Positions 6,657 to 49,893 of a DNA stretch of 64,000 nt are shown in pieces. Position 1 is the first letter of the stretch, and every line of letters begins with the position of its first letter. The stretch comes from Antedon mediterranea (Eukaryota > Echinodermata > Crinoidea > Comatulida > Antedonidae). The notes beneath the pieces are model-generated. The model ran no database searches and had not been told where the DNA came from. It saw nothing but the letters and a program-made list of their open reading frames with translations. The translations under genes and the position numbers were made by a program. The DNA lies in the NCBI RefSeq assembly GCF_964355755.1, contig NC_092675.1, positions 18,676,912 through 18,740,911 of the forward strand. Reading direction: 5' to 3'.

Positions 6657-6728
6657 CGCCCCAACCGAGACTCGAACTCGGACCGCCTGCTTGATATGCA
6701 GATGTCCTAACCATTAGACCACTGGGGC
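6657..6728 (-). tRNA. tRNA-like gene with anticodon AUC (would read GAU, Asp)
   Basis: On the minus strand the 72 nt fold into a full cloverleaf. The acceptor is GCCCCAG paired with TTGGGGC (one G-T), the D stem is GTCT/GGAC with loop AATGGTTA, and the anticodon stem is TCTGC/GCAGG with loop ATATCAA. The T arm CCGAG/CTCGG with loop TTCGAGT is perfect, and the discriminator is G. A TTTTT Pol III terminator follows about 4 nt downstream. With U33 fixed, the anticodon is ATC. Eukaryotic tRNA-Asp normally carries GTC, so this is an odd gene, a tRNA pseudogene or the head of a SINE. Overall layout resembles tRNA-Asp/Glu. Confidence 0.75.
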
Positions 6729-31081: not shown

Positions 31082-31164
31082 GTGGTTTAAAACCGACACA
31101 AACATCACATGTTTACTAAAATTACGTGTGGCCGAGCGGTTAAGAAAGTGGAACCGTAATTACA

Positions 31165-31519
31165 GCAAATTTGGGAAACTAAATTATAGTTTATACACAA
31201 TACCATCTGGAGTAACCCGGACTCCACTACAAGGACATTGAATATCAATAGATAATTATACCTACACTATAGTGACCTCAACAAGTGACAGTTGATGGAT
31301 GGGTTTGGTACTGCCTCCTTTAAGTCTACTTTTTAAGGAGAATTGGTATTTTACACAAGGTTACCGTACTAATAAATTAAACTTAAAAGACTAGGCGACA
31401 TATTTATAAAAACAGGTGTCCCTATCAAATAGATCAGATTGACTATACATAGTATAACAAACTGGACATGTATCATTGATGTTACAGCAACTCGCTAGCA
31501 TCAGTCAGATTTTATTTTC
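31165..31519 (+). repeat. Split direct repeat A1
   Basis: 355 bp matching A2 at offset 5806, beginning GCAAATTTGGGAAAC and ending CAGATTTTATTTTC. It probably holds the promoter of the element RNA. Confidence 0.93.
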
Positions 31520-31676
31520 TGCACATTAATTTACTTTCTTCTGCTACAGGATATATACTATATTTAACTCTGGACGCATATTTTACATAGGATTTTATTT
31601 AATTGATTATCATTTTCTTTGTGTTGCCTATTTTACTACGTTTTTTATACTCGGCGTTCAATTTATTGATTACAAA

Positions 31677-32953
31677 ATGGCACCTACCAGGACAACTACA
31701 AAGCGTTCTACTACGCCGTATGAAAGGGACACGCACAAGAACTGGACAATCGCAAAATTAAAGAGTGAACTTGTTAAGCGAGGTATATCATTCACACAAA
31801 ATGCTAAAAAAATGGCACTGATTCGCCTTTTGACGGAGTCAAATACTGGCTTTGAGGTGTCATCACCAGTTCCGGCTGAAAGTATTGAACCCGCTGAGGA
31901 ACAACAACAACAAACAAACAACAGAAACAATCGGGAACTAACGGAGTTGGTATCGAAGCTTTCTTCAACAGTTAAAAATCTGCAGGAAAATGTTTTCTAA
32001 CTTAACTCAAAGGGTAATTGACCTAGGGCATACTAGTGCCACGAATCCAGTACCACCGCCTACCAGTGGCACGCCTATTAATGCAAACTTTACAACAAAT
32101 GTCGTCGCTATAGAAGACGACACGCAAGGAACTTACACTGTCGACACGGCCCTCCAAGCATATAACGCTCCTGCGAACAACAATACCTCAAGGATGTTTA
32201 AAAAAAACAAGATTTGGATATTCCGCCGAATCTCTACCATTAGTGGAAACAATCTCTCCGGCAATCCGGCAACAGATCATTTCAGGTAGGGATGTTAATT
32301 TAGCATCAATAATGATTCTGTATTACTCTGGTCTATCCATCGAATCCAACAACAAGGATGGTGCAAATGCCCACACTAAAGATATAAGGTTAAACAAAAG
32401 CCTAAATATCGGGGAGTTCATATATGCCTTTGGCATTTATAAAAATATATTGTGCGGAGCTTATCCGCAACGTAGAAAGGAGTTAGACCAATATGAGAGG
32501 GACATTGTAGATATGGCGTCAAGATATCCCGGTAAGGGATTTTACAAATACCACAAACAGTTCAGTTTAACAGCAGCAGCACATTTGCGCTATAACAATA
32601 TTTTGGTCGATTGGTCCGTGAGAAACAACACACTGTTTTGCAACATATTCGCGAACAGTCGTCCCAATACTTGTTCAAAATGCAACAGCACCTTGCATTC
32701 AACGGCGTTCTGCTCTGAGGTGAATATATTTCAGGCGAAAAGTGCTGCTCCAAATAGCTACGCCAGTGACTTATACGGCAGGAAGCGCGTATTCCACAAC
32801 GGCGTAGAAATTTGCAATAACTTCAATGGGAACAGGGGCTGTCTCAGGCCAAGATGTAATAATCTACATGTTTGCCTAGACTGTAAAGGAGACCATGCAA
32901 AACATTTGTGTAGGCTCAGTGCCTCAAAAAACGGACAACGGCCCCACCCTTAA
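31677..32953 (+). pseudogene. DIRS-like gag protein (SAP-like domain and zinc fingers), two frameshifts
   Basis: Nucleocapsid-like protein expected to bind the element RNA. The start ATG follows CAAA. Residues about 20-55 (KLKSELVKRGISFTQNAK...LIRLL) fit a SAP DNA-binding fold, followed by a Q/N-rich stretch. The frame breaks near 31985 (an extra T in TTTT) and near 32200 (eight A where seven would keep frame). It then runs from about 32210 to the stop at 32951-32953. The C-terminal part has CSKCNSTLHSTAFC, a CCCH-type cluster CNNFNGNRGCLRPRCNNLH and CLDCKGDHAKHLC. Both breaks lie in homopolymers, so the gene may be intact in the organism. Confidence 0.8.
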
Positions 32954-34600
32954 GGGGCCAGAGCAGACTGAAACATGACACCGCTAACTTTAACTTGTCT
33001 GTTACAACACCCATTAACATTACGGAACTAACACTAATGCTCGAAACTTTTCCAAACACAAACACCAAAGAGTATTTAATCAACGGACTTTCCCATGGTT
33101 TCTACACAGGCATCAAAAGCCTGCCCAAACAATCAATTGAATGTAAGAACTTGAGATCCGCACTGCGACAACCCGAAATCGTTACGGAACTAATCACAAC
33201 CGAGGTGAGCAAGGGTTATTTGATTGGCCCATATAATAGTAATCCATATAATCAGTATCGTATAAATCCGATTGGTATCGCTGAAGGTAGATACTCGCAC
33301 AAAAACGACTTATTGTGGACCTATCAGCACCTCATGATGACTTAAACAACCCGAGTCTAAACGAACTTATAGACAAAGACGCATTTTCCCTTCAATACGT
33401 ATCAATAGATGACGCGATAAAAATAATAAAACAACAAGGGCAAGGCGCGTTATTGATTAAGACTGATATTACGGACGCCTTCAAAATTATACCGATTCAT
33501 CCTAGCTTAAGAAGTTACCACGGTATCAAATGGGACAATAAATATTACTTTTTTAAACAATTAGTGTTTGGCTGTCGTTCAAGCCCAAAGATATTCGACA
33601 CCTTATCGGAAACTGTTTGTTGGATCGCAACGAACGTATTTAAAATAAAAAATATTCTTCACCTTTTGGATGATTTTCTGGTCATTGAATCGCCACAGAC
33701 AAATGCGGATAGTACAAAACAAGTATTGTTAAACATGTTTTCAACACTCGGTATCCCATTATCGGAAAAGAAAACCGAAGGACCAACTACTTTAATAGAA
33801 TATCTTGGTATTTATCTGGACTCAGTTAACATGGAAGCGAGACTTCCGATGGATAAGGTAAATAGAATCCAACAGATTATACAACAATTCAGTAGGCGCA
33901 AATCATGTTCAAAAAGGGAACTATTGAGCCTACTTGGACACTTGAACTTTGCTTGTAGAGTAATCAATCCAGGGCGTTCCTTTGTATCACACCTTATCGG
34001 GTTGTCTACTACTGTTAAAGAACTACACCATCATATACGCATTAGTCATGAATGTCGGTCTGTTCTAGCGATGTGGTCACGTTTCTTAAAGGGATGGAAC
34101 GGTATTTCTTTTTTCATGAATGACGACATAACAACAGCAAGTGATCTTAAACTTTTTACCGATGCAACACGTACTGCATTTGGGGGAATTTATGATAACG
34201 AATGGTTCCAGGGGGAATTCCCCAAAGACTGCGTCACCGACAAAACGTCCATGGCCTTTTTTGAACTCTATCCTATTGTTATGAGCTGCGTGTTATGGGG
34301 CCATATATGGAGTAGGAAGAGAATTCTGTTTTATTGTGACAATATGGCGACCGTTGAAATTATTACTAAGGGTAGATCAAAAACACCCGAAATTATGAAA
34401 CTGATGAGGAGATTAACCTACTGTATCATTCAGCTACACACTGTTATTATGTCTATGCAAAACACATTGCTGGTAAAGATAATGTAATAGCAGATTCAAT
34501 TTCTCGTTACCAGATGGAGAAGTTCCGAATATTGGCACCCGAGGCGAATCTTCTACCAACGAGCTGTCTACATCATTCCGAGCTTCTGATGAATTAAAAC
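32950..34600 (+). pseudogene. DIRS-like reverse transcriptase and RNase H, two frameshifts
   Basis: RT-RNase H that copies element RNA into DNA. The N-terminal part is open from about 32950 to 33310 (TPINITELTLMLETFPNT). The frame shifts at an A5 run near 33312 and continues from 33315. Residues below count from the Met at 33315. Motif A is TDITDAFKI (D51), motif B FGCRSSPKIFD, and motif C HLLDDFLVI (DD 119-120, with L where many RTs have Y). RNase H residues are D283 (LFTDATRTAFGG), E317 and D342 (FYCDNM). A further one-base loss near 34440 shifts the frame, after which AKHIAGKDNVIADSISRYQ, the end of the RNase H domain, can be read to about 34600. Confidence 0.88.
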
Positions 34601-35572
34601 AGCAAGTCGAACAACTCTGGAACGCAGCTATTTGTGATTCTACAAAAAGAAAATGTGTATCATACAGCGGTTCAACGTTTTTTGAATTTTCTTATTATGT
34701 CAGGTATGATTCTGCCGAAATCAGGACTTCCGCCAATTGTTGAGGGACACCTCATTTATTTTGTAACTCACTGTCAGAAAGTACTGAGCCTAAAACTCCA
34801 TACAATCAAACTCTACCTGTCAGGAATTCGCTTTCATTATATCAAAGCGGGTCATCAAGATATCACATTGGGAACAGAGAGACTACAATACATACTTCGC
34901 GGAATTAAAAAATCACAGAACAATAATCAACAAAAACGTTTACCGATTACTGCAGATGTACTAACAAAAATGAGTAACGTACTTTTGCGGGGTGTGTTTT
35001 CCCCGTTTATGGACCTTATGATTCAGTGTGTGTTCAAGTTAGCGTTTTATGGTTTTTTAAGATGTGGTGAGTTCACATGTAAACGAAAGACTTCCTGTAA
35101 CGATTACTTAAGAATTAGCGATATTACCTTTAGCCCAGATTGCCAATTATATGTTTTACATCTGAGGGCATCCAAAACGGACCCCTTTAGATTGGGAATC
35201 GATATAACAATCTTTGAGAACAAAAATTTATATCCCGTCCATAATATGTCTAAATACATTGCCCTTAGATTGTGTAACGGTGCACCCTATTCAGCCCCGT
35301 TGTTCGTCGAGAACGAATCAACACACGATCCGTTATCAAGGGAACAATTTCTAATGCTTTTAAGGGAAGTTTTAACCAGAAGTGGGATAGATAACCGCAA
35401 TTTTTCAGGTCATTCATTTAGGATAGGGGCTGCAACATCTGCTACTGCAGCAGGTGTAGAAGACCATGTAGTACAAACCCTGGGTAGATGGTCCTCTAAC
35501 TGTTATATTAGATACATCCGAACGAATCGGAAGGTTTTAAAAGACGCTCAAGCAAATATGTGTAAATTGTAA
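34590..35572 (+). CDS. DIRS-like tyrosine recombinase
   Basis: Site-specific recombinase that integrates the circular DNA form without target duplication. From the Met at 34634 the frame has 312 codons with a full catalytic set: R143 (FLRCGEF), K181 in the beta-hairpin (RASKTD), H260 and R263 (GHSFRIGAAT), W286 (LGRWSS) and Y294 (or Y291) in NCYIRYI. The N-terminal SAM-like core-binding part is visible (VQRFLNFL...LHTIKLYLSGIRFH). Sequence before the Met, from about 34590 (QQVEQLWNAAI), is in another frame. The two join by removing one base from an AAAA run near 34650, so the true N-terminus probably lies upstream. Confidence 0.92.
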
Positions 35573-35669
35573 TACTGTACAGTAAATTACCAAGCCTTGC
35601 AATTACCGCAAGCTCGACTTCATCCTAGGGAATCTACAATAAATTAAACGTATTCTACAAGTACAATTT

Positions 35670-35698
35670 AAGGAGTTAGTCTACGCTACGATCTGTCT

Positions 35699-35732
<34 letters not shown>

Positions 35733-35909
35733 ATAATAATCCCGCCGGGCTCATCCCCGGGATTAAATCCAGCCGGGCTCATCCCCTGGATAATTTTGAG
35801 AGATCAACAGCACCTATAACTAACACAACCACTTGTCCCGTCGGGCTCATCCCCCGGGACAAGTCTAGATGATTTTCATGAGTTTAGCTACGCTACGATC
35901 TCTCTCTCT

Positions 35910-35969
<60 letters not shown>

Positions 35970-36141
35970 ATAATCCCGCCGGGCTCATCCCCGGGATTAA
36001 ATCCAGCCGGGCTCATCCCCTGGATAATTTTGAGAGATCAACAGCACCTATAACTAACACAACCACTTGTCCCGTCGGGCTCATCCCCCGGGACAAGTCT
36101 AGATGAATTTCATGAGTTTAGCTACGCTACGATCTCTCTCT

Positions 36142-36190
<49 letters not shown>

Positions 36191-36317
36191 GCCGGGCTCA
36201 TCCCCGGGATTAAATCCAGCCGGGCTCATCCCCTGGATAATTTTGAGAGATCAACAGCACCTATAACTAACACAACCACTTGTCCCGTCGGGCTCAACCC
36301 CGGGACAAGTCTAGATG
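35670..36317 (+). repeat. Three-unit array of A-runs and nine shared-loop hairpins in the DIRS-like element
   Basis: Each unit has TTAG(C/T)CTACGCTACGATCT or similar, a short TC tract and an A-run (31, 57 and about 44 A at 35700, 35911 and 36143), followed by three hairpins. Hairpin 1 closes AATCCCG/CGGGATT (35738-35764), hairpin 2 ATCCAG/CTGGAT (35767-35791), hairpin 3 ACTTGTCCCG/CGGGACAAGT (35831-35864). All share the loop (C/T)CGGGCTCATCCC, which can itself pair GGG with CCC around CTCAT. The unit excluding A-runs is about 180 bp. Function unknown; location between recombinase and B1 suggests a structural RNA or DNA signal of the element. Confidence 0.9.
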
Positions 36318-36591
36318 ATCATCATCGTAGGGATCGAATGTCCTGTTTCCTAATATTTTTATTTTTTTTTTACAAGAGCAGTATATTTATGATTTTAAGG
36401 TTTCTTTTTATTCTTCTTGGTATAGTATGTTTACCAAGAATTAAATGTAATATCATTTTTAAAAACTATGTAAATAGTCTTTTAATAGGCCTACCTTATT
36501 CTTTTTAGAGCCTGTTCTTATACAATTTAAACTACTTTTATTAATATACACTTTGGTTTATTTCTTGGGGGCTTTCTCTCATGCTATTCGC

Positions 36592-36970
36592 TCAATTGGG
36601 CTGGTATAATTCTTGACAATTATCTCGCCCCCAATAAAATATTATATTCCACGTAGGCCTACTCGGTACTAATAATTTACCGACACTCAGTGGAATTCAC
36701 CTGGGTCCTACTCAGGTCTCATAAAAGATCCGTAACACAGCGAACTAGTATGACAAGAGTAGCCCCCGAAATAGCCAAATAACAATTAAGAATTAAATTA
36801 TTTAAGGTGTGTAGATCGAAGTAGTAGCATAAATATATAATACATAAATAAGCAATAATTACTAAGGTATTTTGTTATTGAGAGTAAGGTACCACGGCAG
36901 TGGCTGGTATTAAATATATAATAAATGTTAACCGATGTATTACTGTACTTATATGGTGTTGTGTATAAAA
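36592..36970 (+). repeat. Split direct repeat B1
   Basis: 379 bp matching B2 at offset 794, beginning TCAATTGGGCTGGTATAATT and ending GTGTATAAAA. It joins A2 directly. Confidence 0.93.
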
Positions 36971-37325
36971 GCAAATTTGGGAAACTAAATTATAGTTTAT
37001 ACACAATACCATCTGGAGTAACCCGGACTCCACTACAAGGACATTGAATATCAATAGATAATTATACCTACACTATAGTGACCTCAACAAGTGACAGTTG
37101 ATGGATGGGTTTGGTACTGCCTCCTTTAAGTCTACTTTTTAAGGAGAATTGGTATTTTACACAAGGTTACCGTACTAATAAATTAAACTTAAAAGACTAG
37201 GCGACATATTTATAAAAACAGGTGTCCCTATCAAATAGATCAGATTGACTATACATAGTATAACAAACTGGACATGTATCATTGATGTTACAGCAACTCG
37301 CTAGCATCAGTCAGATTTTATTTTC
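36971..37325 (+). repeat. Split direct repeat A2
   Basis: Second copy of A1, directly after B1. The B1-A2 junction is the template for completing the circular intermediate in this class of elements. Confidence 0.93.
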
Positions 37326-37385
37326 CCACCCAACCATCCCCATCATCATCCCATCTTACTATTATGGTGCTACTTAGCTAGTCGT

Positions 37386-37764
37386 TCAATTGGGCTGGTA
37401 TAATTCTTGACAATTATCTCGCCCCCAATAAAATATTATATTCCACGTAGGCCTACTCGGTACTAATAATTTACCGACACTCAGTGGAATTCACCTGGGT
37501 CCTACTCAGGTCTCATAAAAGATCCGTAACACAGCGAACTAGTATGACAAGAGTAGCCCCCGAAATAGCCAAATAACAATTAAGAATTAAATTATTTAAG
37601 GTGTGTAGATCGAAGTAGTAGCATAAATATATAATACATAAATAAGCAATAATTACTAAGGTATTTTGTTATTGAGAGTAAGGTACCACGGCAGTGGCTG
37701 GTATTAAATATATAATAAATGTTAACCGATGTATTACTGTACTTATATGGTGTTGTGTATAAAA
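37386..37764 (+). repeat. Split direct repeat B2
   Basis: Second copy of B1. The element ends at GTGTATAAAA and the SINE resumes with TAGCCATAAT. Confidence 0.93.
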
Positions 37765-47667: not shown

Positions 47668-48753
47668 TCATTGTTCTGGTGGTAGCATCATTAGCTCTTC
47701 TTTCGTCGAAGGAGCGGATTGTTTGATTTTACGGCAGTTTATTCCAACCATGATATAACGTTTAAGGTTAGTGTTCATAAGGCCATACATGATGGGGTTC
47801 ACGAAAGTACTGCTGAACCCGATGAGCTTTACAATGTACATTAAAAAGAGATTTCTTGAACTATCGTCAAAACTAAATATTTCTGTCTTTAATACAAAAC
47901 GGATCCAGGTAAGTACATGATATGGTAACCACGAAAGAACAAATACCAACACAATAAGAATAAGTACTTTAATGGCCCGCTTTTTCTTTTTGACATTTCC
48001 TGTTGTTACGCTAGAAATTCCATTTCCGCCTCCACCGCTGAATGTTTCCTTGAGCTGCCAAAGTTGACCAACAACTTTTGAGTAGAGAACGAAAATCACA
48101 AGAAATGGTAAAATATACAAAATAACCGTAAATAAAATAGTGTAGCTTTTGATGTAAACCTCCGCCCATGTCTCCTTACAAAACGTATATTCCAGTAGCA
48201 AATTTACCTTTTCAGTATCGCTAAATATAAACAAGGGTAATGTAAGCAATATTGAGAAAATCCAAACTATGGCCAAATAACCTAGAGCATGCCAAGATGT
48301 TTTTATCTTTCTGTCCTGGTGAGGATGACATATCACCTGATATCTGTCACCTGCTATGCAAATTAATGTCAGAATACTTGCTGCTATGGCCAATGCTGTC
48401 AAATAGTTTCCAAGTTTACAACCAATTGTGCCAAGTATCCAATTGAAACTTATGATCTCCACAACTGTGAATGGAATGCACACGCAGGCAATCAACATAT
48501 CAGCAACTGCCAGAGATGCTACAAGAATATTAGTTATCGTTCTCATTCTACGGTTGAATGTGATGATGTATATTATGACTGAATTTCCAATAAAGGCAAA
48601 CAGGAATGTTATTCCAAACAACGTACACAGAATAAAGCGAAGTTGATATGACAGACCTTTAAGGCAGTAGTCGCTGAATTCTTCCAACTCGCATCCTTCC
48701 TCAGCAGTTAAATTTAACTGACCTAGGAAAATTTGTATTACATCCGCAGACAT
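47668..48753 (-). CDS. Orphan peptide receptor, class A GPCR, coding sequence in one exon
   Basis: Predicted 361-aa seven-helix membrane receptor. The start is placed at 48751-48753 (MSADVIQ) because TTTATTCTACAG, a good splice acceptor, lies 15 nt upstream on the minus strand. The longer frame from 48786 would translate intron. Visible: N-glycosylation site N14-L-T, GN in TM1 (56-57), LAVAD in TM2 (D85), TM3 Cys112, DRY at 136-138 followed by QVICHP, ECL2 Cys192, KKKKR before TM6, SWLPYH at 274-279 (Ser where CWxP is usual) and NPIMY at 319-323. A GGGGNG stretch lies in the third intracellular loop. It resembles QRFP/orexin/CCK-type peptide receptors; the ligand is unknown. Confidence 0.9.
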   Translation of the reverse strand: MSADVIQIFLGQLNLTAEEGCELEEFSDYCLKGLSYQLRFILCTLFGITFLFAFIGNSVIIYIITFNRRMRTITNILVASLAVADMLIACVCIPFTVVEIISFNWILGTIGCKLGNYLTALAIAASILTLICIAGDRYQVICHPHQDRKIKTSWHALGYLAIVWIFSILLTLPLFIFSDTEKVNLLLEYTFCKETWAEVYIKSYTILFTVILYILPFLVIFVLYSKVVGQLWQLKETFSGGGGNGISSVTTGNVKKKKRAIKVLILIVLVFVLSWLPYHVLTWIRFVLKTEIFSFDDSSRNLFLMYIVKLIGFSSTFVNPIMYGLMNTNLKRYIMVGINCRKIKQSAPSTKEELMMLPPEQ

Positions 48754-49893
48754 TTTCCAAGACGTTTTCTGTAGAATAAAGTACAATATCGATTAGCAGA
48801 TTTAGCAGTTATAGTTTCAATAACAACAATTGAATCGCTTTTGTTTACGGTATTAGTTTAGTGTAGAATACATAAGATATGTTCAGATAAATAAAACTAT
48901 ACTCTCATCTCATCAATTTCCTTAAATATAATTTCTACATGCCAGATTGCCAAATAAAATATTGTTTTTCTCGTGACGGTATACGGAACGAGTAATTTAT
49001 ATGAAAGATTATTTTGCGCATGCTCATATACACAGGGAAGAGTGAAATTTCCCTGGTATACGTTGCGTTTGAGAAACGTCTTTTTGATAAAGTTTTGTAA
49101 TTTCAATGACCATTCATAAGAAATTACGTAGTATGAAATATCACAATAGGCTTAAATACATCATTTTGTATACTGTAGTTTATAAAATGAATTTCTATAA
49201 TAAAAATATAAAGCGGTCACTGTCAACAAACATGGTTAAACTTCAATTACAAATAGTCTTGAAAAGGTTATATTTTGCGTTACTTAACTTGGGTTAACGT
49301 AAGACAACATACATTTAACTAGTATATCACGATTTATGTTATCAATCTGCGGGTTACTTTGACAACTTTATACATGAAAACACATAAAGACACATAAATC
49401 TGCTAGTTAAAAAGCAGGAAACAAAAGGATTAATGTTCTATTATTAGAATTTCACCTTGATTTTGTTTTAGTTTTTAAAAAAATAAAATATTTAAAAAGA
49501 CACATGAAATATATATTACAATTTAATATGTTATTATTATGATTATGTTGGGGGCGTGGGCTATAATAATCACTAGTCACCTTGTAAAATTGCAATGATC
49601 CATACATGTTTGTCCTGTATTTGTTAGAATGAAATATTAGGATCATCTCTTATGGATCAATAGACCGAAATGGCGTACAATTCAGCTAAAAACAAAATAA
49701 ACCGTTGACAAAATATTCTTAGTTTTATACATGGAATAATCTATATTATATAACACCTATATAAATTCCTGTCATTTGATTGGACGAATGTGGGTCACAT
49801 GGCGTGCAATAGTACGCACTATTCAACGATCGTTAAATAGTACTTTTTGAAACATTTTTGTGTACGAAAAAAAAACGTCTAGATGTTATATAA
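48754..49893. other. Intron and intergenic DNA upstream of the second receptor
   Basis: On the minus strand this would hold the intron and 5' exon of the receptor. No exon could be identified. Confidence 0.4.

Follow-up and report, generated by a model that had tools for sequence, protein, structure and literature searches.

A tandem array of nine hairpins was found between the tyrosine recombinase (YR) gene and the B1 repeat of an Ngaro-like retrotransposon of the crinoid Antedon mediterranea. The array lies in a 64,000-nucleotide stretch of NC_092675.1 (positions 18,676,912–18,740,911), referred to below as the window. The hairpins are present in the other listed copies of the element that share the B1 context, their stems covary in this family (F1) and in a distant one (F4), and differing arrays occupy the same place in other families. 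We tentatively regard the array as a cis-acting recognition element that would mark the genomic RNA, the Gag-like product of ORF1 being the first candidate for its partner; this reading is plausible, although short of probable.

Organization of the element and the hairpin array

The element (window 31,164–37,764, plus strand, like all its features given below) was delimited by self-comparison and Pfam domains and has the order A1, ORF1, reverse transcriptase (RT), YR, array, B1-A2-B2. A1 (31,164–31,519) and A2 (36,970–37,325) show no difference over 356 nt, suggestive of a young insertion, and B2 (37,377–37,764) is 99.5% identical to B1 (36,583–36,970), which contains AATAAA at 36,633–36,638. 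The RT ORF (33,315–34,487; RVT_1, E = 7.5e-13) is separated by 146 nt from the YR ORF (34,634–35,572; Phage_integrase, E = 2.5e-7, and alignment), and a general Pfam search revealed no methyltransferase domain in either. Translation of an ORF1 part (32,243–32,953) contains three Cys/His clusters recognized by eye (C-x2-C-x4-H-x4-C, C-x8-C-x4-C-x3-H and C-x2-C-x3-H-x4-C). Comparable clusters were seen by eye in ORF1 of families F2 and F4, and a Pfam search of the ORF1 parts of three proteins for zinc fingers gave no family at E values up to 10. Elsewhere in the window, the minus strand carries an uninterrupted ORF of a rhodopsin-family receptor (47,668–48,786; 7tm_1, E = 2.9e-55) and a tRNA gene detected by Rfam and ARAGORN (6657–6728).

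The preliminary description had called the element DIRS-like. The split direct repeats make it Ngaro-like rather than a DIRS element in the narrow sense. The repeat plan A1-[ORFs]-B1A2B2, which is shared with Ngaro-like YR retrotransposons together with RT and YR, is given for Ngaro in the available part of PMC8547959. Split direct repeats, and for DIRS also an internal complementary region, are described in the available parts of PMC9210276, PMC8547959, PMC6681497 and PMC4157794.

The array occupies positions 35,675–36,321, between the YR stop and B1, as was established by sequence reading, self-comparison and shuffles. Its description as three tandem units of three hairpins with three stem sequences was confirmed, as was its position. 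The units are spaced by 234 and 213 nt (start to start), with 98% identity between units 1 and 2. Each unit combines a long A-run with three hairpins in the order A-run, hairpin 1, hairpin 2, a spacer with AATTTTGAGAGATCAACAGCACC, hairpin 3 and a tail closing in a pyrimidine tract. A tail fragment precedes the first A-run and no tail follows the last unit, which is the arrangement expected from tandem duplication. The A-runs are located at 35,700–35,730, 35,911–35,967 and 36,143–36,186. Hairpins 1, 2 and 3 were placed at 35,738–35,764, 35,767–35,791 and 35,831–35,864 in unit 1 (reading and folding), and at 35,972–35,998, 36,001–36,025 and 36,065–36,098 in unit 2 (folding). In unit 3, hairpin 1 (36,185–36,211) folds alone and has its outer stem replaced in a longer fold, hairpin 2 (36,214–36,238) was found by folding, and hairpin 3 (36,278–36,310) differs by one base in its tip.

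The 13-nt segment originally described as a kept loop is indeed exact in eight of the nine hairpins, the ninth being TCGGGCTCAACCC, but it is not open: it folds into a tip consisting of a 2-nt pyrimidine bulge (CC or UC), a GGG:CCC helix and a CUCAU loop. This common tip sits on three different stems.

With the A-runs shortened, nine perfect non-overlapping stems of at least 6 bp were counted in the array, versus a mean of 0.98 and a maximum of 3 in 60 dinucleotide shuffles. Stretches from YR, RT and the part after the array in the same element are not above chance in this respect: the observed number was reached by 20, 60 and 16 of 60 shuffles, respectively. The RNA folding that had been proposed as a check placed the hairpins of unit 1 above chance: the 129-nt three-hairpin part has a z-score of −3.2 as RNA and −4.9 as DNA, and none of 200 shuffles was as good in either case.

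Copies of the array in the genome

A genome search with one unit revealed 11 matches at five places; this and the other counts from DNA searches of the genome are lower bounds. Three units each are present at C6:18.71 Mb (the window), C1:4.83 Mb and C6:26.98 Mb. An older copy at C11:13.643 Mb (L010) has one partly decayed unit with 82% identity. One partial unit lies at C7:6.790 Mb (L011), where the array sequence alone was matched within 3 kb among the F1 features compared. The loop-with-stems search suggested earlier was carried out with the pattern TCCCGYCGGGCTCATCCC (up to two mismatches) and gave 30 matches, confined to the same five places, four of which are copies of this element; the reversed control gave one match.

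These numbers bear on the possibility that the units are a nested SINE or another small RNA that inserted into the element several times by retroposition. Each unit does close with a pyrimidine tract followed by an A-run, like a SINE tail. However, both searches lead to the same five places, and the only sequence detected outside the element is the partial unit of L011. Neither dispersed copies nor a head of tRNA, 5S, 7SL or another known RNA were found, and the array itself gave no Rfam or tRNA match. We therefore rejected this origin as extremely improbable. Several other RNA candidates were also discarded. A spliced-leader or Sm-type RNA, prompted by AATTTTGAG after hairpin 2, and a hammerhead-type ribozyme yielded only weak, chance-like Rfam matches below the gathering score, and a likeness of GGGCTCAT to the anticodon arm of initiator tRNA found no support.

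A search with B1 and its left flank gave at least 42 matches (52 candidates, 40 of them scored). Among the matches listed, four start at the first base of the query and eight others begin at base 24, like B2, the remainder being partial. The four are the array-bearing copies, so that 4/4 listed matches to B1 including its left flank carry the array, and the loss of the array from other copies, which had been named as a possible refutation, was not seen. The accompanying expectation that stems stay paired held for the most part, with some two-sided changes, but some hairpins have decayed. The outer pairs of one hairpin 1 are lost in the C1 copy. In L010, hairpin 2 is degraded, and the hairpins are absent from the best fold of the complete unit.

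Rearranged copies were also observed. In the C6:26.98 Mb copy (L003; G000 C6:26976286-26988200), A1 is joined to the YR gene without the RT region and B1 is split by about 8.6 kb, while the whole array is still kept. A and B repeats stand immediately before A1 of the C1 copy (C1:4838488-4839714), as if two elements or circles were joined in tandem. Pairs of A and B repeats with 51 bases between them occur at C1:13688287-13689081, C3:37131832-37132632, C11:15431483-15432269 and C5:25475935-25476637, where no further A or B match was listed beside them; these pairs resemble solo A2-spacer-B2 remnants.

The corresponding region in other element families

A YR search of the genome gave 77 matches. 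Downstream of the recombinase, 39 of these stretches were viewed, in sets of four, fifteen and twenty; in the set of fifteen, seven were viewed as full sequence and the others through the output of a repeat finder (as far as L035), BLAST or patterns. A search for YR relatives in viral contigs gave 27 stretches that matched a pattern, none of which was confirmed.

The sister family F2 (four copies; YR mostly 51–64% identical) has units of an A-run and hairpins at the place of the array, with another loop (TGGAT-CTTC-ATCCA and ATTGGAT-CTTC-ATCCAAT). A pattern demanding (C/T)TTC listed 26 array hairpins, two of its 28 rows being the B1-start region, and the stems hardly vary. A test of conservation in ten units counted 6/320 hairpin cells against 65/633 others and is biased, as the units were chosen by hairpin patterns. 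Whole-region comparisons of copy pairs gave 3/103 versus 10/466, 3/63 versus 20/381 (no difference) and 2/98 versus 48/444 (p = 0.004). Thus, an excess of hairpin conservation was found in one of three pairs, the hairpins being marked by pattern there too.

In the distant family F4 (YR 24–28% identical), the copies L029, L036 and L056 contain 15, 10 and 9 hairpins. The F4 hairpin has a one-nt bulge (mostly U), a CAAC-type helix and a 2–5 nt loop, with GGAG/CTCC and GGTG/CACC stems in alternation. Because of the bulges, perfect stems in the F4 array are at the chance level (2 versus a mean of 2.32 in shuffles). The stretches fold at z-scores of only −1.6 to −1.9, and some long folds do not include all hairpins. 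An F4 element also contains a 209-aa ORF on the minus strand (L062, 3979–4608), which by eye is SGNH hydrolase-like.

Family F3 (L022, L023, L024 and L035) has a 21-nt tandem repeat with about three small hairpins GAGC-nnnTG-GCTC, preceded by CGGC-GTTTG-GCCG where the sequence was printed, and its relative L027 keeps two hairpins of this kind. No array was found in F5 (L032, L052 and L057 by reading; L031, L033, L034 and L037 by their match to L032), where about 60–75 nt separate YR from a hairpin at the start of B1 and L032 showed no structure (z = 0.16). One large folded region is present in F6 (z = −1.6 in L038 and −5.0 in L049) and weak hairpins in F7; reading revealed no tandem array of this kind in either. 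L051 and L059 diverge upstream of the array position, and L055 was left outside these families. Hairpin arrays after YR thus recur among families but are not universal.

A separate hairpin straddles the start of B1 (window 36,565–36,634), its left arm outside the repeat and its right arm inside (TTGGGGGC/GCCCCCAA), so that it is absent from B2. A matching hairpin was found in L022, L029, L032, L038, L043 and the F2 copies. Its arms elsewhere (GGGTGC/GCACCC, CTGGGTG/CACCCAG and GGGCTGCT/AGCATCCC) are family-specific yet paired, and the fold z-scores are mixed, from −0.7 to −2.9.

The comparison of families also bears on a host-facing role, in which the hairpins and encoded A-runs form a 3′ UTR structure that stabilizes or exports the element mRNA or aids its translation via host proteins such as poly(A)-binding protein, with no part in packaging. 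Long A-runs adjoin the hairpins in F1 and F2, and the array follows the last ORF and precedes the AATAAA of B1. On the other hand, the tips differ among families within one host, and reading revealed no such A-runs in the arrays of F3 and F4. Such a role is considered unlikely.

Covariation of the stems and the acting strand

The hairpin patterns for F1, F4 and F2 demanded most of the tip. Tip constancy is therefore not an independent result, and the F1 and F4 stems were recounted without the tip. The F1 alignment (A1 in our numbering of alignments) comprised 11 hairpins from 30 pattern matches, 13 of them distinct. Two variants of hairpin 1 that differ only outside the paired columns were left out, as was one hairpin 3 of the C6:26.98 Mb copy that has a tip change and was missed by the pattern. 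In these 11 hairpins, 84.1% of cells were paired and the covariation score was 0.210, versus 0.018 to 0.094 with the partners slid; without the tip, the values were 80.6% and 0.255, versus 0.024 to 0.111. Two-sided changes were observed at three pairs (C-G/A-U, A-U/G-C and U-A/A-U). Against column shuffles without the tip, the share of paired cells was reached by 0/500 and the score by 2/500, and the number of two-sided changes was not above the shuffles (418/500 reached it). The F4 alignment (A3) included 15 of 16 distinct rows, the omitted row lying in the B1-start region. Here, 86.7% of cells were paired with a score of 0.216, versus at most 0.112 with the partners slid; without the tip, 78.9% were paired, the score was 0.297 versus at most 0.170, and two pairs changed on both sides. 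The F4 counts of two-sided changes were likewise not above column shuffles.

Stem covariation with a constant tip, as in protein-bound RNA hairpin arrays, was thus found, with few independent events, since the F1 hairpins are paralogues and near-identical copies; the three hairpins of a unit themselves look like duplicates of one another. Selection for structure, which the preliminary description had read from the shared loop on differing stems, is in part borne out: scores exceed all slid controls in F1 and F4, but two-sided changes stay at the shuffle level and the events are few.

The array could instead be a neutral tandem repeat, in which a short palindrome was duplicated with its A-run and spread with the element, the pairing being simply inherited. 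The near-identity of units 1 and 2, the small stem variation in F2, the shuffle-level two-sided changes and the single, partly decayed unit of L010 are in line with this. Scores above every slid control in two families argue against it, as do the hairpin arrays that F1/F2, F4 and F3 have in the same position despite unrelated sequences, and we assign it a low probability.

RNA and single-stranded DNA fit the data alike as the acting strand. Several units give antisense folds of about the same strength as the sense folds, unit 1 folds equally well as DNA and as RNA, and the ratio of sense-strand G-U to A-C pairs is 3:0 in F1 and 9:7 in F4. One-sided bulges are kept in both families, which speaks against a two-fold symmetric double-stranded site.

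Integron attC sites act as a folded single strand with extrahelical bases and lie near a tyrosine recombinase gene. By fold and reading, the array likewise forms a folded single strand with one-sided extrahelical bases beside such a gene. Its hairpins might accordingly be attC-like sites for a YR acting on a single-stranded cDNA intermediate. The adjoining YR gene, the good DNA fold of unit 1, the kept bulges and the absence of a sense-strand preference in F4 are consistent with this. However, the array differs from a site bound through its arms in having a constant tip and variable arms, and recombination at the hairpins was judged from unit numbers alone (3, 3, 3 and 1). We consider such sites very unlikely.

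Discussion

The array had been noted as lying outside known DIRS anatomy, and the YR-element literature, as far as it was covered, agrees with this. For Ngaro-like elements, the available text mentions no hairpin array between YR and B1 like that of the element studied here. The available parts of PMC9210276, PMC8547959, PMC6681497 and PMC4157794 do not describe one, and those of PMC3783388 contain no wording on hairpin, stem or tandem structures. The same applies to PMC3266345 for hairpin, stem-loop, tandem or secondary structure, and to PMC2632668, whose available text presents an amphioxus Ngaro-like element without mention of such an array. Titles and abstract openings on Ngaro or DIRS together with structure or tandem repeats revealed no such array either; this coverage is partial, and absence from print is not claimed.

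The constant tip on changing stems, its tandem repetition and the other tips of other families point to a partner that recognizes both shape and loop and is supplied by the element, and the Cys/His clusters of ORF1 make a Gag-like protein the first candidate. The array may thus serve as a cis-acting recognition element in the 3′ untranslated region of the genomic RNA. Each hairpin would present one tip (pyrimidine bulge, short G:C helix and CUCAU) on a stem that is mainly required to pair, and the nine copies would form a multivalent docking site. The tip would be read by an element-encoded protein, with the Gag-like ORF1 product as the most likely candidate and RT as a possible one, and in this way the RNA of the element itself would be singled out to be assembled into particles and reverse transcribed. 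In related families, position and design would be retained, each family having its own tip.

Multivalent protein-bound RNA hairpins include the operators of phage MS2, iron-responsive elements and retroviral packaging signals. These share with the array a constant bulge and loop, stems that mainly need to pair and the presence of several copies. The array differs in its long A-runs between units and its place on the 3′ side of the genome, and its partner is a putative one.

In favor of cis recognition, we counted the above-chance hairpins, the 4/4 copies, the covariation, the arrays with other tips in F2 and F4, the small hairpins of F3, the kept bulges and the ORF1 clusters. Counted against it were the strand ambiguity, the two-sided changes at the shuffle level, the chance-level stems of F4, the array-less F5, the ORF1 parts without a Pfam match, the long folds of F4 and L010 that miss hairpins and the F2 conservation in one of three pairs.

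A broader and more doubtful proposal is that YR retrotransposons carry an unrecognized class of family-specific hairpin arrays between YR and B1, their tips evolving together with a protein of the element and providing the signal for cis recognition. In its boldest form, the partner would be YR itself on folded single-stranded cDNA. To our knowledge, the ways in which DIRS- and Ngaro-type elements recognize the RNA that belongs to them, prime its reverse transcription and generate circles have mostly been deduced from repeat anatomy. A recurring array with a family-specific tip is a concrete cis element, open to deletion, swapping and protein-binding tests.
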